A stretch of 64,000 bases of DNA from a bacterium (lineage in GTDB: Bacteria; Joyebacterota; Joyebacteria; Joyebacterales; Joyebacteraceae), in assembly GCA_025782395.1 (NCBI GenBank), contig JALGZD010000120.1, positions 1-64,000 of the forward strand, in the 5' to 3' direction. Below are positions 41,300 through 57,431 of the stretch, piece by piece. The notes under the pieces are model-generated. The model was given only the letters and a program-made list of their open reading frames with translations. It was not told the origin of the DNA and did no database searches. A program made the position numbers and the translations under genes. Position 1 is the stretch's first letter. Each line of letters starts with the position of its first letter.

Positions 41300-41343
41300 T
41301 CTGCACCTCCTGCGCACGTTTCGCGCGGAGGGAAACGACGCCG

Positions 41344-41961
41344 CTATCCGGCCAGGCTTCCCTCAAGAAACAGTTTTGATATCGTACTGATGCTCTCTTC
41401 ATATGGATGTCGTTCGGGATCCTTCAGCCAGGACAAGAGGAAGGCGTTCGTCAACCCCTCCAGCGCAACGGCCATGTCGTGCGGATCCAGATTTCTGAGG
41501 AGCTTCGCACGCACGCCTTTCTCCATCACCGATGCCAGTCGCGCGATGAGATCATCATGGAGCCGGCCTATCTCCTTGTGTAGCCCCGCTCCGAGGTTGA
41601 AACTCACGCCTCCCGTCTCTGCGAAATAGAGGTAGAAGACCTCGACGTTGGGCGCGAAGATTCTGGCCTTCACCGTGACGTAGGCGTTGAGCGCCGCCAG
41701 TATGTCCTGTTCCCCGGAAAGGACATCAGTCAGCGTGCGATGGTACTCACCCGCCTTCTCCAGCATCGCGGCCTTGTAGAGATCCTCCTTGTTGGCGAAA
41801 AAGCGGTAGATTGTTCCCAGAGCGAACTCCGCTCGCTTCGCGATCGCCTTCATGGAAACGTGATGATATCCCTTCTCCGAGAAGAGCTCGAGCGCCGCCG
41901 CAAGCATGTCTCCTCTCTGGCGACGCTTCTCCCTCTCTCTGCGTGAAAGCCCGACCTCCAT
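41344..41961 (-). CDS. TetR-family transcriptional regulator
   Basis: 205 residues. The N-terminal TetR helix-turn-helix is clear: AAALELFSEKGYHHVSMKAIAKRAEFALGTIYRFFANKEDLYKA. The C-terminal ligand domain has no assigned effector. It is transcribed with the radical SAM gene downstream. A promoter and two 9-bp direct repeats lie about 40-70 bases upstream, which suggests autoregulation of the pair. Confidence 0.92.
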   Translation of the reverse strand: MEVGLSRREREKRRQRGDMLAAALELFSEKGYHHVSMKAIAKRAEFALGTIYRFFANKEDLYKAAMLEKAGEYHRTLTDVLSGEQDILAALNAYVTVKARIFAPNVEVFYLYFAETGGVSFNLGAGLHKEIGRLHDDLIARLASVMEKGVRAKLLRNLDPHDMAVALEGLTNAFLLSWLKDPERHPYEESISTISKLFLEGSLAG

Positions 41962-42197: not shown

Positions 42198-42803
42198 CTA
42201 GCCCTGCCAGTCCTCCGTGATGTACACCTCCCGCCTGCACGACGGACATAGAACCCTGTATGTGTCGCCCCTGCCGAGCGGCTTATCGCCACGCGCCGAC
42301 GGATCAGTGGTCGCACCGAGCTCCCTGTTCAGGGCCGTTACAAGAACCGGGTTGGCCACAGCCAGTGAACCTGTCTTGCGCGCGATCCACATCAGGTGCT
42401 CACGTGTCGTGATCACTCCACCGCACGACTCGCAACGGACGAGTTCCTTCTCCACCTTCGTGACCGCCTGCTCTCTGTCGAAGACAGCGAGCTCGTATTT
42501 CTCATTTGAGAGGATGATGCCCTTCTTGGTCGTACAGTAGGCTTGGCACTGGCCGCAGAAAATGCAGTTGTCGAAGTGATGGATGAGAGTGCGAGTGTTC
42601 CCCTCGTCTATCACATCGATCGTCCTCGCCGGACACACCTCCGCACACGCCCCACATCCGACACAGTCCTCCTCCTGCCACTCCGGCTGGCCGCGGAAGG
42701 CGTCCGCAGGCTTCAAGGGGGTAAACGGGAACGAGGTTGTGTACGGCCCCTTGATCACGGCAGTGATCGCTTCCCTGACCTCCCGGATCTTTGGTGTCTT
42801 CAT
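42198..42803 (-). CDS. NuoI/MbhN-like ferredoxin subunit of membrane-bound hydrogenase, with zinc-ribbon tail
   Basis: 201 residues. Two [4Fe-4S] motifs are CVGCGACAEVCP and CIFCGQCQAYCT; the second ends CT rather than CP. The N-terminus ITAVIKGPYTTSFPFTPL matches the NuoI/EchF/MbhN class, which passes electrons to the small subunit. The C-terminal 90 residues carry four cysteines in two pairs (CESCGG and CPSCRR), a zinc-ribbon or rubredoxin-like knuckle. It is the last gene of the operon and lies 27 bases after mnhG. The position at the far end, away from the catalytic subunits, repeats the mbh order. Confidence 0.88.
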   Translation of the reverse strand: MKTPKIREVREAITAVIKGPYTTSFPFTPLKPADAFRGQPEWQEEDCVGCGACAEVCPARTIDVIDEGNTRTLIHHFDNCIFCGQCQAYCTTKKGIILSNEKYELAVFDREQAVTKVEKELVRCESCGGVITTREHLMWIARKTGSLAVANPVLVTALNRELGATTDPSARGDKPLGRGDTYRVLCPSCRREVYITEDWQG

Positions 42804-42830: not shown

Positions 42831-43169
42831 CTACCGACCCGTGTCTTCCTTGTACCTGTCGACGACCGTGCCTTCCCACAGCCTGACGCCGGCAATGTGC
42901 GCGCCGCGAGCGAGGGCATGGCTTCCTGTCGGGGACGTCCACAACACAAAGATCGCAGCCAGGAGCGCCTTGATGCCCATCGCGTTCCATCCCGAGTGTA
43001 CCAGCACACCGACAAGCACGAGGAACGTGCCGAGCGTGACGCACTTCGTCGCTGCCTGAAGCCTGTTGTAAACGTCGGGGAGTCGAATCAGTCCGAGCGC
43101 ACCGACAAGGTCGAAGATGACGCCGGTGGAAATCAGGATGATGGGTGCCAATCCTACCTGACTATTCAT
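42831..43169 (-). CDS. mnhG: Mrp antiporter subunit G (MnhG/MrpG-like)
   Basis: 112 residues from ATG 43169, chosen because the preceding frame is shadow sequence of mnhF. Three membrane helices are predicted and the family segment GALGLIRLPDVYNRLQAATKCVTLG is unmistakable. In Mrp systems and the MbhC position of hydrogenases, G is a small membrane subunit of the Na+/H+ translocation unit. It overlaps mnhF by eight bases. Confidence 0.92.
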   Translation of the reverse strand: MNSQVGLAPIILISTGVIFDLVGALGLIRLPDVYNRLQAATKCVTLGTFLVLVGVLVHSGWNAMGIKALLAAIFVLWTSPTGSHALARGAHIAGVRLWEGTVVDRYKEDTGR

Positions 43170-43416
43170 CGAATCCCCTCCCCTCCAGATACTTCGCCAG
43201 AGCCAGCGTCCCGATGAACGCGAGCAGGGCCCAAGCGATGGCGATGTTGAGATAGAAATCACGACCGGTCACAACCCCGAAGACACCGCAGATCCCCACC
43301 ACCATTACCCCGATCGTGTCTATCGCAACCGCCCTGTCGGGTGGCGTCGGTCCCATTGCCACCCTGTAGAGGCACATGAAGCACCCCATGATCAGCAGAA
43401 ACAGGATTACGGTCAT
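43162..43416 (-). CDS. mnhF: Mrp antiporter subunit F (MnhF/MrpF-like)
   Basis: 84 residues from ATG 43416, the usual MrpF length. Membrane helices and the family motif GPTPPDRAVAIDTIGVMVVG are present. It starts on the stop codon of mnhE (TGATG, one-base overlap), so translation is coupled. Part of the ion-translocating module. Confidence 0.92.
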   Translation of the reverse strand: MTVILFLLIMGCFMCLYRVAMGPTPPDRAVAIDTIGVMVVGICGVFGVVTGRDFYLNIAIAWALLAFIGTLALAKYLEGRGFDE

Positions 43417-43919
43417 CAGTCGAACACCCTCCTCAAGGTAACCTCGAAGCGACCCGCGATGTCCCTGGTAATCGCTTCCGCATCCTCGAGATTCTCGTGG
43501 ACGTTGATCCAATGGACATAGAGCCAGTCGTCGATGATATCGATGGTCAGTGTGCCCGGCGTCAGTGTGATCGAATTCGCAAGGAACGCCTTGGCTTCGT
43601 CACTCTTCAGTGTCGTCTTGATCTTGACGATTCCCGGCCGGATGGGCAGGTTCGGGTGAAGCACCCGGTAGAGAACATCAAAGTTGGCCACGATGATCCA
43701 GAACAGGAGCGAGAACAGATGTATGATCGCCCAGAACCAACGCACCGGACTGAAAAGCCTCTCCGCCTTTTCCGGCAGGAGACCCGACAGAGCGATCGCG
43801 AACAGGACCGCCAGAACCGCCCCCACCACCACTCCCTGCCAGTCGAGAGACCACGTCAGGAGCAACCACAGGCCAAAGTAGATGATGAGATCCAGGAGCC
43901 TTCGCTTCAGTGTGTCCAT
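43416..43919 (-). CDS. mnhE: Mrp antiporter subunit E (MnhE/MrpE-like)
   Basis: 167 residues from ATG 43919, with AAGGAG 5 bases upstream. Two membrane helices near the N-terminus and the C-terminal soluble portion with NSITLTPGTLTIDIIDDWLYVHWIN are family marks. The equivalent MbhA subunit occurs in archaeal membrane-bound hydrogenases. It overlaps the end of mnhF by one base. Confidence 0.92.
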   Translation of the reverse strand: MDTLKRRLLDLIIYFGLWLLLTWSLDWQGVVVGAVLAVLFAIALSGLLPEKAERLFSPVRWFWAIIHLFSLLFWIIVANFDVLYRVLHPNLPIRPGIVKIKTTLKSDEAKAFLANSITLTPGTLTIDIIDDWLYVHWINVHENLEDAEAITRDIAGRFEVTLRRVFD

Positions 43920-43935
43920 CAGTGCTCCTTGCCCT

Positions 43936-45468
43936 CTATCCGAGGACCAGCTGGATATACTCCGCACCATTCATGAGAGCGTCGCGGGCGGGCTCCAGGA
44001 TATACACCCCCACCATAGGGTAGAGGAGTCCGAACCCGACGCAGGCTATCGCCAGGAGGATGAGAGGCACATACATGAGAGCGGGAACCTCTTTGGCCTT
44101 CTCAACCAGCTTCGATACGCTTCCAAACAGGATTTCCCGCTGGACCTTGATGTAGTAGACCAGCGTCACAAACGCGAAGACGATGGCCACGATCGCGATC
44201 GCCGTATGCCCGGCCTTGATCGTGGCGACCAGGATCACGAGCTTGCTCCAGAATCCGCTGAACGGAGGAACTCCCGCGATGGAGAGCGCTGCCATGTTCG
44301 TCGTAAAGGCCGTGACCGGCATCTTCTCTCTCAAGCCGCCCAGCTGCTTCATATCCCTGGTCCCGGTCGCGTACTGGATGGCGCCGGACGAGAGGAACAG
44401 CAGAGACTTGAACGCGACGTGGTTGAACATGTGGAAGAGGCCGCCCAGTATCGCGAGTCCCGCGATGGAGAGCTGTCCTCCGGTGGCAAGCACGCGCGCG
44501 CCGACTCCGATTCCCAGCATGACGTAGCCGACCTGGCCGATCGAACTGTACGCCAGAAGCCGCTTGTAATCCCACTGCCCGATCGCCAAGAGGCCTCCGA
44601 CGATGATTGACAGAAGCGCGAACGCTATCATGCCGTTTGCGAATATGACCGCTTCTCCGGCACCCGTTCCTATGCCGTAGACGTTGAAGAAGACGCGGCA
44701 GATCGCGTAGATGCCGAGGCTTTTGATGACAACGCCTGAGAGCATCGCCGAGATCGGTGCCGGAGCCGAAGGATGTGCGTCGGGAAGCCACGCGTGGAAC
44801 GGCACCAGTGCCGCCTTCAGACCGAAGCCCATAAGGAAGAACGCCCCGGCGAGAAGCAGTGCCGGATTCATCTCGCCGCCAAACCTCATCGCTATCTCTC
44901 TCGCGACGTCTGCCATGTTGAGAGAACCAGTTACCGCGTAGACCGTCCCGATGCCGAACAGCAGCATCACGGATGCCACGCTGCCGAGGATCAGGTATTT
45001 GAAACCCGCCTCCAGCTCCTCCGCGCCGACTCCGAACGCGACAAGAGCGTACGACGCGATCGATGCGACCTCGAGGAACACATAGAGATTGAAGAGGTCT
45101 CCCGACACAACCACCCCGTTCATCCCGGCCACCATCAGCATGAAGAGCGCGTAGTACTTGGTGAGACCGGTGTACGTCTGCATGTACTTGAGCGAGAAGA
45201 GAATGCAGAGAAACCCGATCACGTTGATCGCTATGAGCAACAACGTCGAAAGACCGTCGCTCACCAGTGCGATTCCCACCGGCGGTACCCAGCCCCCCAT
45301 GTAATACACGGCCGCCGGCCTGCTCACTTGCAGCATCGACATGACCGCCAGTATCAGCATCGACAGCGGGGCAAGGGTCTCCCCGCTCTTCTTCCACCAG
45401 ACGCCCAGAAGGGGAATGAGGAAGGCCGCTCCGAGCGGGATCGCAACATAGAGTGGTAAAGGGTTCAT
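43936..45468 (-). CDS. mnhD: Mrp antiporter subunit D / NuoN-like proton pump
   Basis: 510 residues with about 14 membrane helices. The antiporter core is visible: GDLFNLYVFLEVASIASYALVA with the key Glu, PFHAWLPDAHPSAPAPISAMLSGVVIK with the Lys-bearing broken helix, and LAYSSIGQVGYVMLGIG. It is one of two large antiporter-like subunits in this operon and shares the fold of NuoL/M/N. Expected to carry out H+ or Na+ translocation coupled to electron transfer. It starts four bases after mnhC. Confidence 0.94.
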   Translation of the reverse strand: MNPLPLYVAIPLGAAFLIPLLGVWWKKSGETLAPLSMLILAVMSMLQVSRPAAVYYMGGWVPPVGIALVSDGLSTLLLIAINVIGFLCILFSLKYMQTYTGLTKYYALFMLMVAGMNGVVVSGDLFNLYVFLEVASIASYALVAFGVGAEELEAGFKYLILGSVASVMLLFGIGTVYAVTGSLNMADVAREIAMRFGGEMNPALLLAGAFFLMGFGLKAALVPFHAWLPDAHPSAPAPISAMLSGVVIKSLGIYAICRVFFNVYGIGTGAGEAVIFANGMIAFALLSIIVGGLLAIGQWDYKRLLAYSSIGQVGYVMLGIGVGARVLATGGQLSIAGLAILGGLFHMFNHVAFKSLLFLSSGAIQYATGTRDMKQLGGLREKMPVTAFTTNMAALSIAGVPPFSGFWSKLVILVATIKAGHTAIAIVAIVFAFVTLVYYIKVQREILFGSVSKLVEKAKEVPALMYVPLILLAIACVGFGLLYPMVGVYILEPARDALMNGAEYIQLVLG

Positions 45469-45471
45469 TGG

Positions 45472-45819
45472 CTATCCCCTCAGCTTGCTGATCACGGACA
45501 TGTCAAAGGTCCCATGCTTCTCGTAGAGCCGAATGCACATAGCCACCATGAGCGACAGGACACCCAGGCCGATGACGATGGATGTGAGCACCATCGCTTG
45601 CGGAAGAGGATCCACGAAGCGCTCGAGAGTAGCCGCGGGCATGTCCGGTTCGATGATCGGCGCCACGCCGCCGCTCTTGTACCCGACGATGATGAGATAC
45701 AGATTCACGGCGTAGTCCATGATGACTATGCCGAGAACTTTCTTCACGATGTTCTTCTTGGCCACGAGACAGTAGAGCCCCATTGTCAGAAGAACTATGC
45801 ATAGGAAATATACGGTCAT
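45472..45819 (-). CDS. mnhC: Mrp antiporter subunit C (MnhC/MrpC-like)
   Basis: 115 residues with three membrane helices, of the NuoK type: DYAVNLYLIIVGYKSGG and DPLPQAMVLTSIVIGLGVLSLMVAM are the conserved stretches. It sits with subunits B and D in canonical order and overlaps mnhB by four bases. Confidence 0.93.
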   Translation of the reverse strand: MTVYFLCIVLLTMGLYCLVAKKNIVKKVLGIVIMDYAVNLYLIIVGYKSGGVAPIIEPDMPAATLERFVDPLPQAMVLTSIVIGLGVLSLMVAMCIRLYEKHGTFDMSVISKLRG

Positions 45820-46271
45820 GCCAGCTCATCCTCGATCATGGCCCTGAAGGAACGTCTACGGAAAATCGCCAGCGCCGAGAAAACCAAGAAGAGCGAGCTG
45901 GCAACCTTGAACGCGATAGCGATATTCAGCGGCAGAATCATCCCTGAGCTCAAGAGCCGGAACACTTCCCCCCTGCCAAAGGTGTTCATGAAAAAGAAAC
46001 CGACGGTTACGCCGAACCAACCGATGAGCAGGAACACGAGAGCTCCACCGCTGTCGGCAACGTGGGCTACCTTCTCGGGCAGCTTGGAAAAAGCCACGTC
46101 CTTCCCGTGCGCCAGCATCGTGAGAATGAAGGCGCATGCGATGATCACACCTCCGGCGAATCCCCCACCCGGCGTCAAGTGGCCATACAGCACAATGTAC
46201 GCGCCGAATACTACGATGAAGCCGACAACGAAGTCCGTGATCGTCTTGACGATAACAGTCATGCCCTTCAT
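45816..46271 (-). CDS. mnhB: Mrp antiporter subunit B (MnhB/MrpB-like)
   Basis: 151 residues, four membrane helices. The motif VFGAYIVLYGHLTPGGGFAGGVIIACAFIL is diagnostic of MnhB. It corresponds to MbhF of archaeal hydrogenases. It overlaps the upstream and downstream genes by four bases each, so translation is coupled throughout the set. Confidence 0.93.
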   Translation of the reverse strand: MKGMTVIVKTITDFVVGFIVVFGAYIVLYGHLTPGGGFAGGVIIACAFILTMLAHGKDVAFSKLPEKVAHVADSGGALVFLLIGWFGVTVGFFFMNTFGRGEVFRLLSSGMILPLNIAIAFKVASSLFLVFSALAIFRRRSFRAMIEDELA

Positions 46272-46825
46272 GCGGCGACCACCTCCCCCTCCTTCTTCTT
46301 CCCGTCTCTTCTCAGCAGCGCCAGCGCTCCGAGAATCGAGGTGAAGAGCACCGTGGCCTCACCCATCGTATCGTATGCCCGGAAGTCCAGGATCACCGAC
46401 GTTACGATATTGGCGCAGTGTGTTGCAGGTAGTCCCGTGTGCACATACACCCTGGACACGCGCATGACCGGCTCGCCGAATTCGGGAAAGCCTCTGCCCC
46501 CGAATATCATCGCCCCAAACCCGAGGACCAGCCCGAAGAAAATCAGCGATGTCACGACCGCCAGCGTATCTCGGTGCGACTCGACCGCCGTGTTGTCGAG
46601 AAGAATCGTTCCCCTGATCAGGATGATCAGCACGAGAACTTCGACAACCAGCTGTGTGATCGCGATGTCCGGCGCTCCGAGGAAGAGGAACGCAACAGAC
46701 AGCGCGAAACCGACCGCCGCCACCGAGATCACAGCGGACAGGAGGTTCCTGGTCTCAATGGCCACGATCGATCCCACGATCATGAACACCAGGAGTGCAT
46801 AGAGCTGAGGAGTGATGTTTTCCAT
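46268..46825 (-). CDS. DUF4040 / MbhD-MbhE-like fused membrane subunit
   Basis: 185 residues. The N-terminal half is a DUF4040 domain (VIVGSIVAIETRNLLSAVISVAAVGFALSVAFLFLGAPDIAITQLVVEVL), the NuoJ-like MbhD portion also found at the end of MrpA. The C-terminal half resembles MbhE (helices around AHTGLPATHCANIVTSVILDFRAYDTMGEA). In Mbh the two are separate genes; here they are joined. Its start lies 71 bases inside the 3' end of the NuoL-like gene. The split from the large subunit mirrors Mbh rather than a complete MrpA. Confidence 0.85.
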   Translation of the reverse strand: MENITPQLYALLVFMIVGSIVAIETRNLLSAVISVAAVGFALSVAFLFLGAPDIAITQLVVEVLVLIILIRGTILLDNTAVESHRDTLAVVTSLIFFGLVLGFGAMIFGGRGFPEFGEPVMRVSRVYVHTGLPATHCANIVTSVILDFRAYDTMGEATVLFTSILGALALLRRDGKKKEGEVVAA

Positions 46826-48707
46826 TAACTCGCTCCTTGAGCAGCGCCGTCAGTACTGCGAACACTATCGCGCCGAGGCCGATAACGCACCACGCGAGGT
46901 ACGTCGACAGGACGCCGCTGTGCATGGATCTCAATGCCTGAACAAAGACATCGCCGACCCGGCCACCGACCACGTGTACGTCGAACACCTTCTGCTCGGC
47001 GTTCATGTAGAAACCCTTGAACGGAATCATCTCCTTTATCGTGTTGTAGAAGCCGGTTCCGGTCACGTGCATTGCATCCATCCGCTCCGGCGGTCTGATG
47101 CCACCCACGAAAATACGCCCGACCCGCCGCGTCGTGAACTTCCCGATGAACACCACGAGCAGACCGATAATGATGCCCACAATGATAAGGCCCGTCGCGC
47201 TCGCGGGATCCCAGAAGCCCACGCCGAGAGCGATTGCACCCGTCGACGTCGAACCGACAGCCCCGTGAACGATCGGGTTGATAAACCTGTCGATCGGGAA
47301 CTTCGCCCAGACGCCGAAGAGAATGCAGAGACCGGCAAGGACGAGCATCGGAACCCGCATAAACCAGGACGATTCCCTGACATGACTGAGCGCGCTCGGC
47401 TGCTGCCCGAGGAAGGCCGAGTAGAGAACCTTCACGAACGATGCGAGCGTCAGCGCGCTACCGAAGACCGCCACGAGAACAAAGATCCAGTACGCGCTGA
47501 AGCCCCGGCTCCCGAGTTCAACGATGCCTGCGTATATCATCCACTTCGAAACAAAGCCGTTGAATGGTGGCACACCCGAAATCGCGAAGGCCGCGACCGC
47601 CATCGTGATGAATGTGACCGGCATCGCCCTGGCAAGACCTCCGAGTTTCGAGATCTCGGTCGTCCCGGTCTGTTTCTCGATAGACCCGGCCCCCAGGAAC
47701 AGGCCCGTCTTGTAGATCGCGTTGTTGAGCATATGAAAGAGGCCGCCGGCAATGGCTACGGGAATCCCCGTGCCGATGCCCAGTATCATGTACCCGACCT
47801 GACTGACTGCGTGATACGCGAGGAGCACTTTCAGATCGTGCTGGATGAGCGCCATCATCACGGCCGCGAATATGGTCACCGCACCGATGATCATGAGCGT
47901 TAGAGAGAGACCCGGCCCGATGCTGAAGATATCAAGGCTGATCCTCGCAAGAAGATAGATACCCAGGAGCTTGTCGATTGATGCCGGCAGGAGCGCCATG
48001 ACCGGTGTCGGCGCGCCCTTGGCCGCCGCCGGAACCCAGGTGTGGAACGGCATTGCGCCGGCCTTTGTGATGGCGCCCATCATCAGCAACAGATAGATGA
48101 AAGCGGACGTCCCGTCCCCGACGAAGATCCTGAGGTGGCTCATCGAAAGGGTGCCATACTTGACCCAGATGAGAGCAACAGCAAGAAACATCGCAGCATC
48201 GGAGAACCCGAGCATAAGGAAGCTCTTCGACGCCCCCGCCGATGCCTCGTCCTTCTTCCGACCGAGGTTGACATACAGGAAGAAAAGCGCAGTCAGCACT
48301 TCCCAGAAAATGAGGAGGATGAGCAAGCTGTTCGAGAGCACTGCTCCACAGCTGGCCGCCACGGTCCAGAGCAGATAAGCATAGTAACGTCTGCCGTCGT
48401 GCTCCTTCTCGAGCCACCCGACCGAGTAGATCCCTACGCCCAGACCAAACAGCGCCACAAATATAATAATGAAGGCGCTGAACTGGTTGAGCAGGAGATC
48501 AAACTGGACATCAAGGCCGCCAAACACCACCCAGTCCTTCGTGAACGAGAGCGGCCACTGTCCGAATAGCCGGAGCGCCGCTACGAACGCCCACGCAGTG
48601 CCCGCGAGTGCGATCACCTCCCTGACGCCCCTGACCCGTCTCGGGACGAAGAGACAGAGCAGACCGGCTATGGCAGGGATGACTATGGGAACCAGAATCT
48701 GTGGCAT
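46755..48707 (-). CDS. NuoL/MnhA-like antiporter subunit of membrane-bound hydrogenase
   Basis: 650 residues with about 16 membrane helices. Core motifs are SLLILLIFWEVLTALFFLYV (Glu on the fifth helix), PFHTWVPAAAKGAPTPVMALLPASIDKLLGIY, LAYHAVSQVGYMILGIG and the HxxNNAIYKTGLFLGAG helix with a Lys. It lacks the C-terminal MnhA part carrying DUF4040, which is encoded separately by the next gene. With MnhD this gives two proton/sodium channels in one complex. The 3' end overlaps the next gene by 71 bases, long for this operon; the last 30 residues (HHSSALCTPG...) look unconserved, so a shortened real end is possible. Confidence 0.93.
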   Translation of the reverse strand: MPQILVPIVIPAIAGLLCLFVPRRVRGVREVIALAGTAWAFVAALRLFGQWPLSFTKDWVVFGGLDVQFDLLLNQFSAFIIIFVALFGLGVGIYSVGWLEKEHDGRRYYAYLLWTVAASCGAVLSNSLLILLIFWEVLTALFFLYVNLGRKKDEASAGASKSFLMLGFSDAAMFLAVALIWVKYGTLSMSHLRIFVGDGTSAFIYLLLMMGAITKAGAMPFHTWVPAAAKGAPTPVMALLPASIDKLLGIYLLARISLDIFSIGPGLSLTLMIIGAVTIFAAVMMALIQHDLKVLLAYHAVSQVGYMILGIGTGIPVAIAGGLFHMLNNAIYKTGLFLGAGSIEKQTGTTEISKLGGLARAMPVTFITMAVAAFAISGVPPFNGFVSKWMIYAGIVELGSRGFSAYWIFVLVAVFGSALTLASFVKVLYSAFLGQQPSALSHVRESSWFMRVPMLVLAGLCILFGVWAKFPIDRFINPIVHGAVGSTSTGAIALGVGFWDPASATGLIIVGIIIGLLVVFIGKFTTRRVGRIFVGGIRPPERMDAMHVTGTGFYNTIKEMIPFKGFYMNAEQKVFDVHVVGGRVGDVFVQALRSMHSGVLSTYLAWCVIGLGAIVFAVLTALLKERVNGKHHSSALCTPGVHDRGIDRGH

Positions 48708-48725: not shown

Positions 48726-49898
48726 CTAGAGGTTCTTCCTGAGCCATTCGGTCTTCTGGTGACTCAGTTTCATGAGATCGCGCCCGTTCGCGATCTTGCT
48801 CCCGCCCGGATCTATCGCGGCGATGCGCTCCGTGCAGCTGTAGCAGGGATCGATGACGGCGAAGATGAGCGTCGCGTCCGAGATAGTCTCGCCTTTCACG
48901 CGCGGCCGATAAGACGGAATATTCAGGAAGGTCGGCGCTCTCATCTTGTGCCGCTCAGGCATGTTCGTGCCGTTGGATCGGATGAAGTGGAAACACTCCC
49001 CTCGCGGCGCCTCGATACGGCCGATACCCTCTCCCCGGGGAATCTCGCGCACCTCGTTCCTGATCTCTCCCTTGGGCAGCTTCTTGATGCATTGCTTGAT
49101 GATCTTGGTTGCTTCGATCATCTCGAGAAGCCTGACGACTCCTACCGCAAGACAATCGCCGTCGGGCTGAACTATCACGTCCCAGTCGACCTCGTCGTAC
49201 GCGCCGTATGGCTCGTCGCGCCGGACGTCGATATCGACACCCGAGCCCCTCGCCGTCGGACCAAGGACCCCGTACGCAATCGCGTCCTCTTTGGTCAGAA
49301 TACCGACTCCCTTGAGACGACCGAGTATGACTGGATCATTGAGGATGACGTTGATAAGCATACTGGTCTTCTCCGCAAACTCGTCCATCGATTTCAGGAC
49401 GGGCGGCCAGACCTCATCGGGGACATCGCGCCTGACACCGCCGGGGCAGTACCACGCGTAGTTGTTCCGGTTGCCCGTGATAGCCTCGAGCGCATCGAGA
49501 ACCGGCTCACGGTACTTCCAGCCCCACATGAAGATGGTCCAGTATCCGATGATGTGTCCGGCGAGACCCACCCAGAGCATGTGACTGTGGAGCCGCTCCA
49601 GCTCGTGGACAATGGTCCTAAGATACCGCGCCCTGTCCGGCACGGTGATCCCCACGATGTCTTCCATCGCCAGTGTGGCGGCCCAACTGTGCGAAGCCGA
49701 GCAGATACCGCAGATCCGCTCAACCAGGAACACATCCTGATCGAACGTCTTCTCCTGCGCCAGGAGCTCCATCCCCCTGTGGATGCGCCCAAGCTCTATG
49801 TCGGCGCTGACTACGGTTTCTCCCTCAACCTGCAGGGTGATGTACTCAGGCTCCTCGAGGACGGGATGGAATGGTCCGATGGGAATAGTAGTACTCAT
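48726..49898 (-). CDS. Group 4 [NiFe] hydrogenase large (catalytic) subunit, HycE/EchE-like
   Basis: 390 residues. Both nickel CxxC pairs are intact: C63 and C66 in ERICGICSASHS, and C352 and C355 in DPCYSCTER. So it is a real hydrogenase rather than the NuoD relative, where they are lost. After R358 exactly 32 residues remain (starting IAAIDPGG). E. coli HycE is cleaved by its protease after the Arg of DPCYSCTDR, also removing 32 residues. The subunit should make H2 from protons with low-potential electrons. It abuts the NuoC-like gene with no spacing. Confidence 0.95.
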   Translation of the reverse strand: MSTTIPIGPFHPVLEEPEYITLQVEGETVVSADIELGRIHRGMELLAQEKTFDQDVFLVERICGICSASHSWAATLAMEDIVGITVPDRARYLRTIVHELERLHSHMLWVGLAGHIIGYWTIFMWGWKYREPVLDALEAITGNRNNYAWYCPGGVRRDVPDEVWPPVLKSMDEFAEKTSMLINVILNDPVILGRLKGVGILTKEDAIAYGVLGPTARGSGVDIDVRRDEPYGAYDEVDWDVIVQPDGDCLAVGVVRLLEMIEATKIIKQCIKKLPKGEIRNEVREIPRGEGIGRIEAPRGECFHFIRSNGTNMPERHKMRAPTFLNIPSYRPRVKGETISDATLIFAVIDPCYSCTERIAAIDPGGSKIANGRDLMKLSHQKTEWLRKNL

Positions 49899-50327
49899 CT
49901 ACTCATCTCTCCTCATTGGATGGAAATCCGCCGGCCTGTCGTGAGAAGAGAGGATCTTGCGCGGATCCGGGTGGCCGACGAACTCGACACCCAGGAAGTC
50001 AAAGATCTCTCGCTCGATAAAGTCCGCGGCAGGGTAATACTGTGTAAGCGCTTCTATCTTCGGGAACGGCTTATCGAGAGTGGTCCTGATATTCACCACC
50101 GTGCCCTCACGATCGAACGCGAAATGGTACAGAAGTTCCACCCCTGTCGACCGGTCACTCCCCGTTGCCGTCGTAAGCCTCCCACCCTCCACCTCGTACA
50201 TGTGCCGCAGCACAGTCATCCAGTCGTCGTTCGAGACCGCCACGTATGCCCGTTTCGGGCTGTGCTCGTGGATATCCACGCGGTCTCCGAACTTCGTCTT
50301 CAAGTTCTCGAGAACCTGCTTGCTCAT
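49899..50327 (-). CDS. NuoC-like 30-kDa hydrogenase subunit (MbhK/EchD-like)
   Basis: 142 residues. The motif YHFAFDREGTVVNIRTTLDKPFPKIEALTQYYPAADFIEREIFDFLGVEFVGHPDPRKIL is the family hallmark of the small soluble subunit that docks next to the large subunit. Its stop is immediately followed by the ATG of the large subunit. The N-terminal 40 residues are less conserved. Confidence 0.9.
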   Translation of the reverse strand: MSKQVLENLKTKFGDRVDIHEHSPKRAYVAVSNDDWMTVLRHMYEVEGGRLTTATGSDRSTGVELLYHFAFDREGTVVNIRTTLDKPFPKIEALTQYYPAADFIEREIFDFLGVEFVGHPDPRKILSSHDRPADFHPMRRDE

Positions 50328-50402: not shown

Positions 50403-50816
50403 CTAGAGCTTCCCCATGAGCTTCACTACCGCGCCGATGATCGCCTCAGGACGCGGTGGACACCCTGGGACGTACGCGTCAACCGGGATATGTTTGTCGA
50501 CCGGTCCCGCGAAGTTGTACCCATCCTTGAAGATCCCGCCCGTGCACGCACATGCCCCGATAGCTACCACCGCAACAGGTTTAGGTGCCTGCTCGTATGC
50601 TTCGATGAGATCGGGCATGACCTTTCGTGGTACGCTGCCCGAGACGAGAAGCACGTCGGCGTGCTTCACGCTACCAACCAGCTTCATACCGAAGCGCTCT
50701 ATGTCGAACTTAGGGCACAGACAATCGAGAACCTCAATGTCGCAGTTGTTGCACGCACCCGCGTTCAGGTGAAACACCCACAGCGATTTCTTGAATCCCC
50801 ATTTGATTGCGTCCAT
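50403..50816 (-). CDS. [NiFe] hydrogenase small subunit (EchC/MbhJ/NuoB-like)
   Basis: 137 residues from ATG 50816 (GGGGAGCAA upstream); the longer frame overlaps the preceding gene. The proximal [4Fe-4S] cluster ligands are expected among C22 and C25 (NAGACNNCDIE), C89 or C91 (GACACTGG) and C119 (VPGCPPRP). VFHLNAG and VSGSVP are group 4 markers. It carries electrons between the ferredoxin subunit and the Ni-Fe site. It overlaps nothing at its 3' side; a 75-base gap separates it from the NuoC-like gene, the widest in the catalytic set. Confidence 0.93.
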   Translation of the reverse strand: MDAIKWGFKKSLWVFHLNAGACNNCDIEVLDCLCPKFDIERFGMKLVGSVKHADVLLVSGSVPRKVMPDLIEAYEQAPKPVAVVAIGACACTGGIFKDGYNFAGPVDKHIPVDAYVPGCPPRPEAIIGAVVKLMGKL

Positions 50817-50838
50817 TTGCTCCCCGTCCGCTCTCGAC

Positions 50839-51777
50839 CTAGAACCCAAGGATCGCCAGGACCATGCCCACGACCGCGATCAGCGTGACCGGCCCCCAGA
50901 AGAACCTCATGGCCTGATCGATTCTGACTCTCGGGTTCACGTTCTTGATGAGGACAATGATCACGATGATTATCAGGTACTTCACGATCGTGTAGAGGAT
51001 ATTCCAGCCCGAGAAGACCAGCCCTCCCCAGAAGACCGTAATGAAAAGAATGGGCAGTGTGAAAAGCAGCATGGCCTGCTGGAGTTTGATGATGGCAAGC
51101 GCCGCGCCCGAGTACTCTATGTGCGTCCCATCCATGATCTCGGTATCTGCCTCGGGAATGTCGAACGGCGGATACGTGAGCTTGGCCTGTGCGACCAGGA
51201 TGCAGACGATGAACGCGAGAATGCAGGAGACGTTGCCGAGAAGCACGCCGTTGGCCGCTTGATACTCAAGGATGCCGTCGAGCCTCAGCGTCATTGGAGA
51301 CACCTTCGTGACGGCCGTGAAGATCGCGATGATGAACGGAAGCTCGTAGGCCAGAACCAGTTTCATCTCGCGGCTCGCGCCTACGCTCGCAAGCGGATTG
51401 CTGGAAGCTGAGGCGCCGAGAATGATTCCCAGTGATGGGATAGTCAGCAGATAGATGACGCCGATCAGATCCCCCACAAAGCCTGCCCCGTTCAGATTCG
51501 TGAGCCAGAGCATTGTGGAGACCACACCTACGGCCGCGAACCCCGCCATCGGCGCGAAGAGGAATCCCGCCCGCCTCGCACCGGCCGGGATGACTATTTC
51601 CTTGCCCAGGAGCTTGAGGATGTCGGCGAACGGCTGGTACCACGGCGGGCCAACCCTCCACTGAACCAGCGCACTCACCTTTCGGTCGACCCACTGCGTG
51701 GCCAGTCCCATTGCGGCCGTGAAGAGCAGGCCAGGGAAGATGAGAAAGCTCAGAAGCAACCCGAGTGTTGAAGCCAT
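50839..51777 (-). CDS. NuoH-like membrane anchor (MbhM/EchB-like)
   Basis: 312 residues, eight predicted helices. Family motifs are QWVDRKVSALVQWRVGPPWYQPFADILKLLGKE and, later, FDIPEADTEIMDGTHIEYSG, the acidic loop that faces the hydrogenase subunits in complex I-like enzymes. It is the ion-channel base that links the peripheral arm to the antiporter modules. It starts 54 bases after the ferredoxin gene. Confidence 0.93.
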   Translation of the reverse strand: MASTLGLLLSFLIFPGLLFTAAMGLATQWVDRKVSALVQWRVGPPWYQPFADILKLLGKEIVIPAGARRAGFLFAPMAGFAAVGVVSTMLWLTNLNGAGFVGDLIGVIYLLTIPSLGIILGASASSNPLASVGASREMKLVLAYELPFIIAIFTAVTKVSPMTLRLDGILEYQAANGVLLGNVSCILAFIVCILVAQAKLTYPPFDIPEADTEIMDGTHIEYSGAALAIIKLQQAMLLFTLPILFITVFWGGLVFSGWNILYTIVKYLIIIVIIVLIKNVNPRVRIDQAMRFFWGPVTLIAVVGMVLAILGF

Positions 51778-51831: not shown

Positions 51832-52314
51832 CTACCTCGTCCTCCGCACCGTTTTCATCACGCTACGGGATCCGCGCATCGGAACGCCTTTCTGAGCCTC
51901 CATGTCGCTGATATCCTCGAACGTGCGCGCCCCGGAGACGCACGTCCCGGCACACATCGAATCCTTCCCCTCGAGAGTCCGCCAGTTGCAGAGATCGCAC
52001 TTGTCGAGCGTGTGCCGCGTCTTCAGGAGATCGATAGCTCCGAAGGGGCACGCCTGCGCACATGATGTGCAACCACTGCACTTGATGTTGCTTCGAACAA
52101 CCAGACCATCATCGCGCCGCTTGATCGCCTCCTGTGGGCACGCCGCTTCACAGAGCGGCTGCTCGCAGTGCCGGCAGTTCATCTGCAGCACAATGTTCGT
52201 CATGATCCGCGAAGCTTCGAGCTGGTTCTGCATGTTGTGCGAATAGAAGCATGCCGCGAGGCAGCTCTTGCAACTGATGCAGCGCCCGTAGTCGAGGACG
52301 TTTCTCTTGTTCAT
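51832..52314 (-). CDS. HydN/CooF-like four-cluster polyferredoxin
   Basis: 160 residues from ATG 52314. Four Cys groups fit four [4Fe-4S] clusters: CISCKSCLAAC, CRHCEQPLCEAACP, CSGCTSCAQACP and CDLCNW...CAGTC. This is the DmsB/HydN architecture used between a molybdopterin-type or dehydrogenase partner and a hydrogenase. It lies between the molybdopterin-family gene and the NuoH-like subunit, so it is the natural electron bridge between the soluble and membrane modules of this operon. Confidence 0.9.
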   Translation of the reverse strand: MNKRNVLDYGRCISCKSCLAACFYSHNMQNQLEASRIMTNIVLQMNCRHCEQPLCEAACPQEAIKRRDDGLVVRSNIKCSGCTSCAQACPFGAIDLLKTRHTLDKCDLCNWRTLEGKDSMCAGTCVSGARTFEDISDMEAQKGVPMRGSRSVMKTVRRTR

Positions 52315-52372: not shown

Positions 52373-54061
52373 TTAGCCCTCCGGCGCAACCTTCACGTTG
52401 GAGGAGGTCACGTCGAACCATTTGGTCTTTGGGTTCACGGTCCAGACCATGAGCCCGCGCGCATCCGGTACATACGTGGGGATAGCCACGAGTCCCGGCG
52501 GCATCCTGTCGGTCACCGTCGTAATCATGCGCGTTTCGCCTCTCGCCGTTGAGATCACCATCGTCGAGCCCTGCTCGATGCCGGCCTCGCCCGCGGCCTC
52601 TTCAGAAAGCCACACTTCGCAGTACGGCTTCTGCATCTGCGGAAAACTCATTCGCCCTGTCAGTGTTCCGTCCCATCGGTGAAGTGGGCTGATACTCTCG
52701 ACGAGCTCAAGCCCATCCGGCGGCTTGCTCGCCATCTTCGCGAGTGCCGCATCAACGTCCACACCCAACTCCGGGTGTGTGGCTGTCAGGCCGCCCACAG
52801 GGATCGTCGTTCCCATCTCTGATGCGATATCCACGAGCATCGCCCCCACAGACCTCGCGTCACCCTGGGCCTTCACACACGCCTCCACCGACGTGGCGAA
52901 GTTGAACGACGGCGAGTAGCTCCCGTCGAACTCCGTCCAGACCACCTGGGGTAGTCCCACCTCGCTATGTTTCGTGGTGTCATTCTCGAAGATCGCGGAT
53001 GCCGCGAGGAAATCGAGGCTCTCCAGGTCATCCAGACTGACTGCTCCCGGATAGAGCTGTACCGGGTCCGGCCCGAACACCAGAAGCCCCTTGATCCGCT
53101 TGTCCGCAACGCCCGCGAGGATCTCAGCTGTCGTGCAGTCCGAACTCACGCACTGAAAAGCGCCGATGGCGTTTCCGCCCCGAAAGAGCGGTGCGTACTT
53201 GCCGCCCGCGGCCGACGCGAGCTTGGCCGCAAGAAGACCCGTCATGTAGCCGGACGTTGAGTCGCCAAGCCGCGACGAGACGATGACAACGACTTTCCGG
53301 AAGTCGCGGAGTCTCGTGGCAAGTCTCTCAAGCCCGACCTTCGACATCCCGCCTGCGGCTGCGGCCCTGTCGATGTCCACAGACGGCGAGCCTTGAACGT
53401 TCATCGCCTTGAGCAGACCGGCCAAGATCAGCGGCTCACTCCCGGCCGGCGGCTCGATGTGCAGGTCGGCGAACCAGTCCGTGTTCGAACGGTACGGATT
53501 AATGGTGATGATCTGATTCGACCTGCTCTTGTGTCTTGCGTCGATGATGCGTTTCGATACGGTCGGGTGGCCCCAGAACACGTCCCCGATCAGGACAAAG
53601 CAGTCCGCTTCGTCGAGATCCTCCGGCGTTGCATCGCCGGTCCCGCCCCCCGTAAGGACCCCGTAATCGTTCCCATCGTAGGCGACGCCGATGTTCGTGG
53701 TGCCAAGAACGTGTGTAGCAAAGCCGACGGCTGCCTCGTAGTCCTCGTTCGAGAGCTCTGTCCCGACGATGATGCCGAGCGCATCAGCTCCGTGGTTCTT
53801 CTTTATCTCATCTATTCTCCCGGCCACCTTCGTCACCGCTGCAGACCAAGGAACCCTGCGCCGGTTAACCGTCGCCGCAAGGAATCGCTTAGGGTGAAGA
53901 AGGATCTCGAGGTTGTAATGCCCCCTGGCGCAGAGTGACCCTCGGGCCAGAGGCGACTCCTTCTCGAAGTCCACCCTCACGGGCACCCCCCGGTCGACCT
54001 CCACGTTGAACCCACACTGGAGGGAGCACATGAGACAAGACGCCTTTCTGATCTCTGGCAT
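52373..54061 (-). CDS. Molybdopterin oxidoreductase-family protein lacking the catalytic Cys/Sec
   Basis: 562 residues from ATG 54061 (GGGGAAG upstream). N-terminal [4Fe-4S] ligands C9, C12, C16 and C44 are intact; the Lys that formate dehydrogenases carry two residues after the fourth Cys is Arg (R46). The MGD-binding domains and C-terminal dinucleotide-binding barrel (EAGIEQGSTMVISTARG, AIPTYVPDARG) are recognisable. Aligned by eye, the position of Sec/Cys and its following His in formate dehydrogenase is N131-D132. It is shorter than FdhF (about 715). So the fold is MopB, but formate oxidation is doubtful; it could be an electron-transfer or NuoG-like scaffold. It sits 25 bases after the flavin reductase gene. 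Confidence 0.88.
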   Translation of the reverse strand: MPEIRKASCLMCSLQCGFNVEVDRGVPVRVDFEKESPLARGSLCARGHYNLEILLHPKRFLAATVNRRRVPWSAAVTKVAGRIDEIKKNHGADALGIIVGTELSNEDYEAAVGFATHVLGTTNIGVAYDGNDYGVLTGGGTGDATPEDLDEADCFVLIGDVFWGHPTVSKRIIDARHKSRSNQIITINPYRSNTDWFADLHIEPPAGSEPLILAGLLKAMNVQGSPSVDIDRAAAAGGMSKVGLERLATRLRDFRKVVVIVSSRLGDSTSGYMTGLLAAKLASAAGGKYAPLFRGGNAIGAFQCVSSDCTTAEILAGVADKRIKGLLVFGPDPVQLYPGAVSLDDLESLDFLAASAIFENDTTKHSEVGLPQVVWTEFDGSYSPSFNFATSVEACVKAQGDARSVGAMLVDIASEMGTTIPVGGLTATHPELGVDVDAALAKMASKPPDGLELVESISPLHRWDGTLTGRMSFPQMQKPYCEVWLSEEAAGEAGIEQGSTMVISTARGETRMITTVTDRMPPGLVAIPTYVPDARGLMVWTVNPKTKWFDVTSSNVKVAPEG

Positions 54062-54086: not shown

Positions 54087-54932
54087 TTAGAATGGATCCT
54101 CGAACTTGGCAACTTCCGCCGCTGTCATGACGGGTCCATCCTTACAGATGTAGAGTTCGCCCATCATGCAGTGCCCACACTTGCCAAGTCCACAGCTCAT
54201 GTTGCGCTCCATCGAGTGGTAGATGCTCTCGGGCTTGAAACCTTTCTCAAGGAGTGCAATGTTGACGAACTTCAGCATGATCGGCGGGCCACAGACGCAC
54301 GCGACGGCCGTTTCCGCGCTGAATGGTGATTTGCCAATGTCCGCGGTGGTAAGAAGAGGTAGATCGTCGAGAAGCACCGTGACGACACCTACTTTGCCGG
54401 TCCAGTTGTCGGCCGGTTCGTCGATCGTGAGCAGCACCTCGGTGTTCTTCATCTTCTCCCATTCGCCGAGAAGATCCTTGAAGATGATGTCTTCGGGTGT
54501 TCTTGCTCCGTAGCGGATGGATATCTTCTTGTAGCGATCGATGTCATCGAAGAGCGCCAGAATAAGTGACCGAAGCGGCGCCAGTCCAACGCCACCGCCC
54601 ATTATCAGGATCTCCTTGCCGTCGAAGTCGGCCATGTTGTAACCGTTGCCGTACGGTCCCCTGATCCCGACGGTGTCTCCCACCTTCATTTTGGTGAGAG
54701 CGTGCGTCACCGTGCCGACATCCATGATCGTGATCTCCATCGTCTCCGTGATGTTGGGGTTCGACGACGGCGTGAACGGGGCCTCTCCAACTCCGGGCAC
54801 CGTCAGCTCAACGAACTGGCCGGCCCCGAAGGTGAGCGGCTCCTTCGGGCGGAACCTGTAAGTTGTGATGTTCGGGGACTCCTGCTTGATGTCCTCGATC
54901 ACACTCTCGATTGGCCTGTAGAGGTTCTTCAT
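54087..54932 (-). CDS. HydG/NfnS-like FAD- and NAD(P)-binding reductase with [2Fe-2S] site
   Basis: 281 residues of the ferredoxin-NADP reductase superfamily. FAD-binding barrel with FGAGQFVELTVPG; NAD(P) Rossmann part GGGVGLAPLRS and a CGPPIMLKF motif. At the C-terminus C247, C252, C255 and C263 (CGLGKCGHCMMG...C) bind a [2Fe-2S] cluster, as in dihydroorotate dehydrogenase B, sulfhydrogenase HydG and NfnS. It would oxidise or reduce NAD(P)H and pass electrons to the HydB-like partner. It overlaps the HydB-like gene by four bases. Confidence 0.92.
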   Translation of the reverse strand: MKNLYRPIESVIEDIKQESPNITTYRFRPKEPLTFGAGQFVELTVPGVGEAPFTPSSNPNITETMEITIMDVGTVTHALTKMKVGDTVGIRGPYGNGYNMADFDGKEILIMGGGVGLAPLRSLILALFDDIDRYKKISIRYGARTPEDIIFKDLLGEWEKMKNTEVLLTIDEPADNWTGKVGVVTVLLDDLPLLTTADIGKSPFSAETAVACVCGPPIMLKFVNIALLEKGFKPESIYHSMERNMSCGLGKCGHCMMGELYICKDGPVMTAAEVAKFEDPF

Positions 54933-55996
54933 GCCTTTGACATCTCCGTGACGACGTGCTTGATAGCTTCTCTCATATCGATCCGACCCATGCAGACGTC
55001 AATGCACCTGCCGCAGCCGGTGCACGAGACCGCGCCGTACCTGTCGCGTGAATACTCCAGCTTGCAGCGGAGGCGATTCTCAAAACGTTGCGCCAGATTC
55101 GGCCTTGAGTTGCCACCACCACCCGTCCTCGCATAGCCGATGGACAGGCACGTGTCCCAGTTCCGCGTCCGCTCGTAGCCGCCCTCCGCCCTCTGGTCCA
55201 CAAGGAGGAAACACGTGCACGATGGACAGACACGATTGCAGGCTCCACAACCGACGCAGTTCTGCGTGACATATGCCCACGCATCCCGGTCGCTCCCCAG
55301 CTCGTGCTTGTCATACGGTACGTCAACCGCATACTGAGCGTTCTGACGCTCTACTGCCGCGGTCACCGATGCCCGGCTTCTGGTCCGTTCATCCTCGTGG
55401 CCTGAATCGACCGGAGTGAAGAGATCGTCGCTCCCATCGAGGAGTTTCTCCCCCTTTTCGGAACCCGTCGTGAGGATGTATCCGGACTCAAGCGGAGAAA
55501 TGTTGAGATCGAACCCGTCCTCGGCGTAGGGCTGTCCGCCCATCATCGTGCAGAAACAGGTCTCCTTCGGCGCGGTGCAGTCGACCGAGACGAGGATTGT
55601 GTTTCGGCGCTTCTCGACGTAGAATGGGTCGTCATACTCCTCCGAGAAGTGCTTGGTGCTCCAATAGACCTTGTCGAACTTCTCGAGGCCGTTAAGATCG
55701 CACGCCCGCGGACCCACGACGATCGTCGCGGGCGCCTCCACGTTCGCCTCAGGATCGCTGCTCGGGTATTTCGCGACCACCTCACGCGCATAGAAGAGGA
55801 ATGTCTTCGGGGACTGCGCCGGGCACGCCCCGTGGAGTTCAAGTTTCTCGGGAACCTCTTCCTTCACAAGCTCGTAGTCGGGTGTCTCCGGATTGTTCAT
55901 GATGTCGAATGTGACCGGGACGTAGACCCTCTGGTTCCTGGCCCAGCGCCCGATCAGCTTGAGGAGGTTCTCTCGTCCGATGAAGACTTCTTTCAT
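54929..55996 (-). CDS. HydB-like (sulfhydrogenase beta) iron-sulfur subunit
   Basis: 355 residues from ATG 55996 (the longer frame has a non-conserved leader). The N-terminal two thirds match the 4Fe-4S dicluster protein family of HydB (GPRACDLNGLEKFD, DCTAPKETCFC). Two [4Fe-4S] motifs follow: C247, C250, C253, C257 in CVGCGACNRVCP and C325, C328, C331, C335 in CTGCGRCIDVC. With the HydG-like partner it forms the NAD(P)H-oxidising dimer of soluble hydrogenases. First gene of the 17-gene set. No HydAD hydrogenase subunits accompany it, so it feeds the membrane enzyme or the MopB-family protein. Confidence 0.9.
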   Translation of the reverse strand: MKEVFIGRENLLKLIGRWARNQRVYVPVTFDIMNNPETPDYELVKEEVPEKLELHGACPAQSPKTFLFYAREVVAKYPSSDPEANVEAPATIVVGPRACDLNGLEKFDKVYWSTKHFSEEYDDPFYVEKRRNTILVSVDCTAPKETCFCTMMGGQPYAEDGFDLNISPLESGYILTTGSEKGEKLLDGSDDLFTPVDSGHEDERTRSRASVTAAVERQNAQYAVDVPYDKHELGSDRDAWAYVTQNCVGCGACNRVCPSCTCFLLVDQRAEGGYERTRNWDTCLSIGYARTGGGGNSRPNLAQRFENRLRCKLEYSRDRYGAVSCTGCGRCIDVCMGRIDMREAIKHVVTEMSKA

Positions 55997-56147
55997 CCTG
56001 GCAAGCCCTCTCGCTTGGAGTTCTCTCGCTGAATCCGGCAGGCTCCCACGCACCGCCTTCCGGAGTGATGGATCTCGGTCTATCTCTGGTCCGTGTAGTG
56101 CCGCGGCGCGTGCTGCGCTCGCAACAGCTCCAACCGTGCGGGCTTCC

Positions 56148-56426: not shown

Positions 56427-57431
56427 CTACTGCTTCGTCTCCATGAATCTGAGATCCAGCTGGCTCTCCCCGGCATCGTCGTCGAGGACATACTTCTTCA
56501 CACTCGAGAGCACCGTCTCCATCGTCTCTAGCCAGAGCCTGGTGCGGATGGTGCCCTGCCCCTTCCGGTACTCCGCAACGAGCGCACGGAAACGCTCCCC
56601 CTCGCCTCTCGCGGCGTTGATGAACTGAGTGCTGTCACCGCGTGCGGCAATGACCAGCGCCGCTCCCTCACCACGCGCCATCGGCACAACGCGGTTGGCG
56701 TAGCCGTTGGCTTCCTGGATGATGCGGTTCCTGTCCTCGCGGGCGCTGGCAACATCCCGGAAGGCGTCGGCAACCTCGCGTGGAGGATTGACCTCCTGGA
56801 TGTGGGCCGCTACGAGTTCGATCCCTGTGCCGTATGAGTCCAGGATCTCCTGGGCTCCCGTCTTGACGTAGCGCTCGATCTCGAGCTTGCCAGTGGTCAG
56901 AATATCGTCAACGCTCATGACCGTCACTTTCTCGGTCAGAACCGCCTCGCAGGACTTCCTCACAAGCCAGTGCGGCTCCTCGGCTCCGAACAGGAATGCT
57001 GCCGGATCCTTCACAACATATTGGACAAGGAGCTGCGCCTCAATGATGTTCTCATCACCCGTAACGAACTGCGTCTCTCGTGATGTCGGAGCCAGCCCGC
57101 GGACTCTGTCCATGATCTTGTAGCCGATGCTCATCCGCTTGATGGATGTCGTCTGGGGGGTTGCGACCTTCTCCACAGGCCACGGGAGGCGATAGTGGAT
57201 GCCCGGCTGGACGTTGGCGGAGATAAGGCTGCCGAAACGTGTAACCACGCCGCGCTCATCGGGCTGCACAACGTAGATGCCCGAGAACACATACATCATG
57301 AGGAGCCCGAGCACGAAAAACCACGCAAGCCGCTTGACCTGCGGGAGACCGGCTTTCATGTCGGTCCGTACGCTCGCCTCGTTGGCCCAGATGCCTGTGT
57401 TCTCGCTCGCTGTGTCCTGCTCGTAGCTCAC
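56427..57431 (-). CDS. hflK: HflK-like SPFH (stomatin/prohibitin) membrane protein
   Basis: 334 residues. One N-terminal membrane helix (LAWFFVLGLLMMYVFSGIY) is followed by a band-7/SPFH domain (VVQPDERGVVTRFG, PGIHYRLPWPVEKV, VTGDENIIEAQLLVQYVVKDPAAFLF) and a long coiled region (VASAREDRNRIIQEANGYANRVVPMARGEG). This is the HflK type, which with HflC assembles into a cage around FtsH in the inner membrane. No FtsH gene is in the window. It follows hflC by three bases and is the last gene of the cluster. Confidence 0.88.
   Translation of the reverse strand: MSYEQDTASENTGIWANEASVRTDMKAGLPQVKRLAWFFVLGLLMMYVFSGIYVVQPDERGVVTRFGSLISANVQPGIHYRLPWPVEKVATPQTTSIKRMSIGYKIMDRVRGLAPTSRETQFVTGDENIIEAQLLVQYVVKDPAAFLFGAEEPHWLVRKSCEAVLTEKVTVMSVDDILTTGKLEIERYVKTGAQEILDSYGTGIELVAAHIQEVNPPREVADAFRDVASAREDRNRIIQEANGYANRVVPMARGEGAALVIAARGDSTQFINAARGEGERFRALVAEYRKGQGTIRTRLWLETMETVLSSVKKYVLDDDAGESQLDLRFMETKQ

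Follow-up and report, generated by a model that had tools for sequence, protein, structure and literature searches.

P0001, a formate dehydrogenase-like protein without the catalytic Sec/Cys, as a probable adaptor subunit of a group 4 [NiFe] hydrogenase

The window analysed in this work, a stretch of 64,000 nucleotides, encodes a MopB protein, P0001, which resembles formate dehydrogenases (FDHs) and lacks their catalytic residues. The question raised by this locus is which function such a protein can have within a hydrogenase operon. The source genome was assigned to Candidatus Effluviviacota (GTDB name VGIX01), hereafter the phylum, which was described in 2024; the paper (PMC11323493) records both mrp genes and hydrogenases of group 4, and its main text has no mention of formate, fdh or molybdenum.

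P0001 and its operon

The gene under study was the following:

52373..54061, minus strand: MopB protein P0001, 562 aa, with Fe-S, molybdopterin oxidoreductase and dinucleotide-binding domains and without the catalytic Sec/Cys (Pfam PF04879, PF00384 and PF01568, and alignments)

The minus-strand frame is open from the ATG at 54061 to the stop at 52373, and the start at MP is common to 17 orthologues. An error of strand or frame was discarded because the plus strand of 52373-54061 has stops and the minus frame is conserved. A hidden selenocysteine was also discarded, since the frame contains no TGA, as the preliminary description of this locus had stated. Its estimate that P0001 is about 150 residues shorter than FdhF was likewise right (562 aa versus 715 for E. 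coli FdhF). Full-length orthologues were found in 18 of the 20 genomes of the phylum, with 59–100% identity, and this conservation is far above chance. As these 18 genomes carry the gene with its ligands intact, a broken gene or a MAG artefact was rejected too. A lone TAG reported in the G013 orthologue falls outside the later profile-search match at the same place and must therefore lie at the very C-terminus.

The match of P0001 to TIGR01591 (formate dehydrogenase) reached 4e-38 and 130.9 bits, under the cut-off of 666, and that to TIGR01973 (NuoG) 43 bits, under the cut-off of 470. The closest PDB matches were the formate dehydrogenases 7qv7 and 9t1s. An AlphaFold model built with 16 close sequences had a mean pLDDT of 57, with values below 50 for the Fe-S domain, and a Foldseek search with this weak model gave FDHs first (1fdi, 4e-19, TM about 0.46). 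The model was too poor for a three-dimensional judgement of the Mo site and was kept out of the residue assignment.

P0001 is the third gene of a conserved minus-strand operon of about 17 genes, with intergenic gaps of at most 75 bases. The asrA-like and asrB-like genes, which overlap by 4 bases, lie upstream of it. In addition to P0001, the operon comprises:

54929..56053, minus strand: AsrA or sulfhydrogenase beta (HydB, ShyB)-like 4Fe-4S protein, 374 aa (NCBIfam ShyB 1.6e-43, HydB 6.7e-43, AsrA 5e-32, all under the equivalog cut-offs)
54087..54932, minus strand: AsrB or sulfhydrogenase gamma (HydG, ShyC)-like FAD/NAD(P)-binding reductase with a [2Fe-2S] site, 281 aa (Pfam FAD_binding_6, NAD_binding_1, DHODB_Fe-S_bind; NCBIfam AsrB 4.5e-63, HydG 2.3e-51)
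51832..52314, minus strand: HycB/CooF/FdhB-like polyferredoxin, 160 aa, four Cys clusters (Pfam Fer4_11 4.6e-18; NCBIfam TtrB/DmsB/HydN-type matches)
50839..51777, minus strand: NuoH-like membrane subunit (sequence and operon position; kept in six genomes outside the phylum)
50403..50849, minus strand: NuoB-like hydrogenase small subunit (Pfam Oxidored_q6 1.9e-31)
49899..50327, minus strand: NuoC-like subunit (sequence and position; order conserved)
48726..49898, minus strand: predicted group 4 [NiFe] hydrogenase large subunit (NuoD-like), with CxxC Ni-ligand pairs CGIC and CYSC (Pfam Complex1_49kDa 3e-70, NiFeSe_Hases 2.7e-17)
46755..48707, minus strand: NuoL/MbhH-type antiporter-like subunit (Pfam Proton_antipo_M 8.4e-56)
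42831..46825, minus strand: Mrp-type cluster, six to seven genes for small membrane proteins, MrpB, C, D, E and G among them (ORFs; order conserved in other genomes)
42198..42803, minus strand: NuoI/HycF-like 2x[4Fe-4S] subunit (NCBIfam formate hydrogenlyase complex iron-sulfur subunit 2.3e-28)

Judged by its sequence, the NuoD-like protein is a hydrogenase, because it has both the CGIC and CYSC pairs, because its best PDB match was MbhL, the alpha subunit of the membrane-bound hydrogenase (6cfw, 2.3e-79), followed by subunit 5 of formate hydrogenlyase (7z0s), and because both Ni-binding pairs were kept in all 17 operon hydrogenases examined. HypD was found in 18 of the 20 Effluviviacota genomes. 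The operon is directly followed by genes for a TetR-like regulator (41344-41961, minus strand) and a radical SAM/SPASM protein (39842-41317, minus strand). Elsewhere in the window, an SPFH/Band 7 domain (PF01145) and a cation-efflux transporter domain (PF01545) share a single minus-strand frame (58317-60038); this unusual fusion is directly followed by two more SPFH genes (57435-58313 and 56427-57431), which gives an HflK/HflC-like set.

Outside the phylum, profile searches in two overlapping samples of 386 genomes yielded near MopB relatives of P0001 in seven genomes (G155, G163, G386, G387, G170, G022 and G309). The order AsrA-AsrB-MopB-CooF-NuoH-B-C-D-L-Mrp-NuoI was repeated in all of these except G309, that of G163 being checked as far as MrpD. 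In the six comparisons MopB was always the least conserved protein of the operon, with a mean identity of 25% versus 37–60% for the others. Among operon MopB lineages the mean identity was 25.5%, versus 49.5% among five FDHs of varied sources, the two samples not being matched for organism distance. When 13 divergent operon MopBs were aligned, only 19 positions were invariant, three Cys ligands among them, and the third Fe-S ligand was Asp in 6 of the 13, from several lineages, and Cys in the others. Such fast divergence with the Cys ligands kept is the pattern expected if catalysis is lost and the Fe-S site retained. The MopB of G163, with 475 aa, has even lost the C-terminal dinucleotide-binding domain. 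In the G155 operon the NuoL-type gene is separated from the Mrp genes by a gene for a 522-aa protein (L093, 9489-11057) with an apparent signal peptide, the motif HENFHQ and no Pfam match.

Catalytic loop and molybdenum cofactor pathway

Two regions of P0001 bear on its classification:

53924..54037, minus strand: [4Fe-4S] ligand region (C9, C12, C16 and C44, with Arg46); all 13 operon MopBs keep C9, C12 and C44 and have either Cys or Asp at position 16
53654..53686, minus strand: residues 126-136, VAYDGNDYGVL, the shortened catalytic loop at the place of CARxU/C-H in FDH (alignments)

The four Fe-S cysteines, Arg46 and the stretch GVAYDGNDYGVL are present as the preliminary description reported. 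The position after the fourth Cys, Lys44 in FdhF, is Arg46 in the phylum and Arg or Lys in the operon family. The same description had also proposed that the catalytic Sec/Cys-His is replaced by N131-D132, and had suggested an alignment with FdhF as a check. In the sequence and profile alignments the absence of Sec or Cys at the Mo site held, and the equivalence with Asn-Asp did not. In a MAFFT alignment of P0001 with E. coli FdhF and other FDHs, Sec140 and His141 fall at Tyr128 and Asp129 after a 4-residue gap, and when the profile of the 13 operon MopBs was aligned to that of five FDHs (probability 100, E 3.5e-54), the FDH Cys-His fell in or beside a gap. A direct count from GT(N/T)N to the end of the next hydrophobic strand gave 36 residues in P0001 versus 42 in FdhF. 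From this count and the gap at Cys-His, the catalytic loop of P0001 is judged to be trimmed by about six residues, with the catalytic residues gone and not swapped for Asn-Asp. No catalytic Cys or Sec was found at the Mo site of P0001, of 16 further Effluviviacota orthologues or of the seven outside homologues.

Within the loop, V126, A127, Y128, G130 and D132 are invariant among 17 phylum orthologues, N131 is Ser in three of them and D129 is Gly in one; neither Asp129 nor Asp132 is conserved across the 13 sequences of the operon family. R294 (RGGN), located near the aligned Arg333 of FdhF, is invariant in the phylum and not in the outside homologues.

The capacity to synthesise the molybdenum cofactor (Moco) was examined by profile searches, one family at a time. 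Neither MoaC, nor the MoaA C-terminal domain, nor MoeA was detected in the window's genome, which is estimated to be 100% complete, and 11 of 14 controls were positive, as were G148 and G003 for MoaC. In the other genomes the pathway was judged by MoaC alone. This protein was absent from 17 of the 18 Effluviviacota genomes with a P0001 orthologue, G003 being the exception and the only one of the 20 genomes of the phylum with MoaC. It was also absent from all seven outside-phylum genomes with an operon-type MopB, in a search in which G148, a genome with other MopBs, was positive. Altogether, MoaC was lacking in 24 of the 25 genomes with a P0001-type MopB.

The exception, G003, has a third MopB, of 831 residues, PsrA/PhsA/TtrA-like, with a TAT-like leader and an intact HTSICE stretch (SICE active-site Cys). 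It is encoded about 5 kb from moaC, and its neighbours are genes for a TorD-like chaperone and a ferredoxin subunit. The location of moaC beside an intact molybdoenzyme indicates that the Moco genes follow this ordinary molybdoenzyme and not P0001. The region (L070, contig C22; L050) looks like a gained island, and the Fe-S motif of its molybdoenzyme is CxxCxxxD. In the window's genome the only other MopB is a GltD-FeS-MopB fusion of the StnC/NsoC type whose site has no Cys, so that both MopBs of this genome are dead. This fusion (L001, contig C67, 83182-87396), of about 1320 residues and with SFGxxxE at the site, occurs in most Effluviviacota genomes.

Proposed function and alternatives

Two functions had been suggested beforehand for P0001, an electron-relay scaffold comparable to NuoG and an enzyme acting on another substrate. 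The former is the best supported: a catalytic residue and Moco synthesis are lacking, and in the hydrogenase operon P0001 has a flavoprotein module of the NAD(P)H type on one side and a polyferredoxin on the other. As the cofactor pathway is missing, the latter can be nearly excluded. We consider that P0001 is probably a catalytically dead, Moco-free MopB that serves as adaptor subunit in a group 4 [NiFe] hydrogenase which is linked to NAD(P)H and translocates ions. This explanation is built on the observed residues, the operon and its conservation, the loss of the catalytic loop, the lack of Moco synthesis and the intact Ni-Fe ligands. From them we infer the formation of a complex, the electron carrier, the order and direction of electron transfer and the position of the P0001 cluster on the path.

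In such a complex, NAD(P)H and H+/H2 would most likely exchange electrons while ions are moved, the use of NAD(P)H being suggested by AsrB/HydG homology. P0001 would join the AsrAB module to the HycB-like ferredoxin. Electrons would pass, in either direction, between NAD(P)H, the FAD/[2Fe-2S] of AsrB and the Fe-S clusters of AsrA; between these clusters and the single [4Fe-4S] cluster of P0001 and/or the HycB-like polyferredoxin; and between the polyferredoxin or P0001, the NuoI-like clusters, the NuoB-like cluster and the Ni-Fe site. This flow would be coupled to H+ or Na+ movement via the NuoH/NuoL/Mrp membrane part. At standard H2 pressure the formation of H2 from NADH is uphill; the low H2 of sediments brings the reaction close to balance.

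The closest alternative differs in the role of the cluster. P0001 could be a structural scaffold only, with a cluster that stabilises the fold or the assembly, and electrons would go from AsrA directly to the HycB-like ferredoxin. In NuoG the clusters of the FDH branch are off the main electron path. StnC showed no oxidation of formate and its FdhF domain is catalytically inactive (PMC7483475, PMC10482914); its clusters C1/C2 are off the electron path, yet removal of the domain or of the ligands abolishes assembly (PMC10482914). NiFe-HydA has a comparable side branch, A4/A5 (PMC8880783). The condition of MopB as the fastest-evolving subunit of the operon is also consistent with a mere scaffold. 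However, P0001 is encoded next to the HycB-like protein, and in formate hydrogenlyase HycB takes its electrons straight from the FdhF cluster. Furthermore, the ligands were never lost in the 13 divergent MopBs and were exchanged only for Asp, itself able to bind Fe-S clusters. An electron carrier is favoured by the adjacency and by ligands so strictly maintained, and the off-path clusters of StnC and NiFe-HydA argue for the opposite; we lean towards a P0001 cluster on the electron path, and regard the purely structural role as somewhat less likely.

It could also be considered that the MopB fold now binds another ligand, such as a nucleotide, by which the complex would be regulated or gated. 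The Rossmann-like domains persist, and motifs specific to the phylum, such as VAYxGxD and GDxFWGHP, are invariant in it; in the outside homologues, however, they recur only in part, and this explanation seems improbable. Still less credit can be given to the idea that P0001 is a working molybdo- or tungstoenzyme for formate or some other substrate, in which Asp129 or Asp132 would bind the metal. Asp has this role in NarG-type nitrate reductases, D132 is invariant in the phylum, and PF00384 and PF01568 are still recognised, but the loop is shortened, neither Asp is conserved across the operon family, and the genome is without MoaC, MoaA and MoeA, MoaC being lacking in nearly all genomes with this type of MopB. 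Finally, that P0001 is a formate dehydrogenase and the operon a formate hydrogenlyase is scarcely credible despite its top family and structure matches (TIGR01591, 7qv7, 9t1s and, with a weak model, 1fdi), because the TIGR01591 score is 131 bits against a cut-off of 666, Sec/Cys-His is missing, Lys44 is Arg and the cofactor pathway is absent.

Comparison with known systems and origin of P0001

Dead MopB connectors are already known (NuoG, StnC, NiFe-HydA), and P0001 differs from them by its partners, its domain plan and the intact group 4 Ni-Fe site. NuoG/Nqo3 is, like P0001, a dead MopB that has kept its [4Fe-4S] site and in which the fourth Cys is followed by Arg, and NuoG also has an NADH module on one side and, on the other, a membrane module of hydrogenase origin. 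However, NuoG has an N-terminal ferredoxin-like region that P0001 lacks, the first MopB Cys of the latter being residue 9. The partners of NuoG are NuoEF instead of AsrAB, the Ni-Fe site is still present in the P0001 operon, and the two proteins appear to belong to separate clades. StnC/NsoC and NiFe-HydA (HydABCSL) are comparable to P0001 in that their non-catalytic FDH-like domains connect further redox modules with an NAD(P)H module, but they are parts of soluble bifurcating complexes with a NuoG-type domain plan, and StnC lies in a separate clade. A MopB and a HycB-like ferredoxin on a group 4 hydrogenase are also found in FdhF-HycB of formate hydrogenlyase (FHL) and in Fdh-Mfh-Mnh of Thermococcus, the latter with Mrp genes. 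Nevertheless, both have the catalytic Sec/Cys, His and Lys that are absent from P0001, and FHL has no AsrAB module.

The nearest description is that of Saganbacteria RX5A (Matheus Carnevali et al., 2019), in which a group 4 hydrogenase was reported together with Mrp-like genes, cooF, asrA and asrB in one region, the hydrogenase being related to those of Zixibacteria and Omnitrophica (PMC6349859). Its molybdopterin oxidoreductase was identified as an FDH by HMMs and could not be placed by phylogeny ("unclassifiable"). The gene content, as described, matches that of the P0001 operon. In the available sections of that paper a generic Mbh-like function is proposed, and neither the loss of an active site nor the absence of a cofactor pathway is reported (PMC6349859). 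An Armatimonadota paper with a group 4g hydrogenase and Asr was rejected as a precedent, since a P0001-type operon is not described there. In the main texts of the open-licence literature we found no prior statement that the MopB subunit of an Mrp-hydrogenase-AsrAB cluster is dead or cofactor-free. The dead, Moco-free nature of the MopB in the cluster type reported in 2019 thus appears to be new, and may explain, as far as the available sections describe it, why the RX5A protein was unclassifiable (PMC6349859). It also matters for annotation, as automatic procedures will tend to name P0001 a formate dehydrogenase, TIGR01591 being the nearest model, and would so credit uncultured anaerobes, Effluviviacota among them, with a formate metabolism for which the genome offers no support.

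The MopB family tree that had been suggested as a check placed the operon MopBs together on one side of a branch with 99/96 support, apart from the FDH/StnC/NuoG side, in which the FDHs with Cys-His and the StnC fusions formed their own groups. E. coli NuoG, however, was a long branch of unsure placement. An origin of the P0001-type MopB independent of that of NuoG is likely on these data. It would be a second, apparently separate case of the event that occurred in complex I, by which an FDH became the non-catalytic connector of a nicotinamide module and a hydrogenase-type ion pump, in this case with the hydrogenase site intact, and the question of how complex I was assembled becomes open to comparison through this operon. 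As a tentative extension, the operon might be an independently assembled, H2-evolving counterpart of complex I, in which an ion-pumping hydrogenase took up an AsrAB/sulfhydrogenase-type NAD(P)H module via an FDH that lost the Mo site and kept the Fe-S wire (with an Asp-for-Cys ligand in several lineages); it would work as an NAD(P)H:H+ oxidoreductase that either drives an ion gradient or exploits one, in bacteria mostly unable to make Moco. In G148, a short MopB without the catalytic Cys (L134, contig C4, about 555700-557400) is encoded near NuoB-like and MrpD/NuoL-like genes and falls outside the operon clade, which possibly represents a further independent inactivation.
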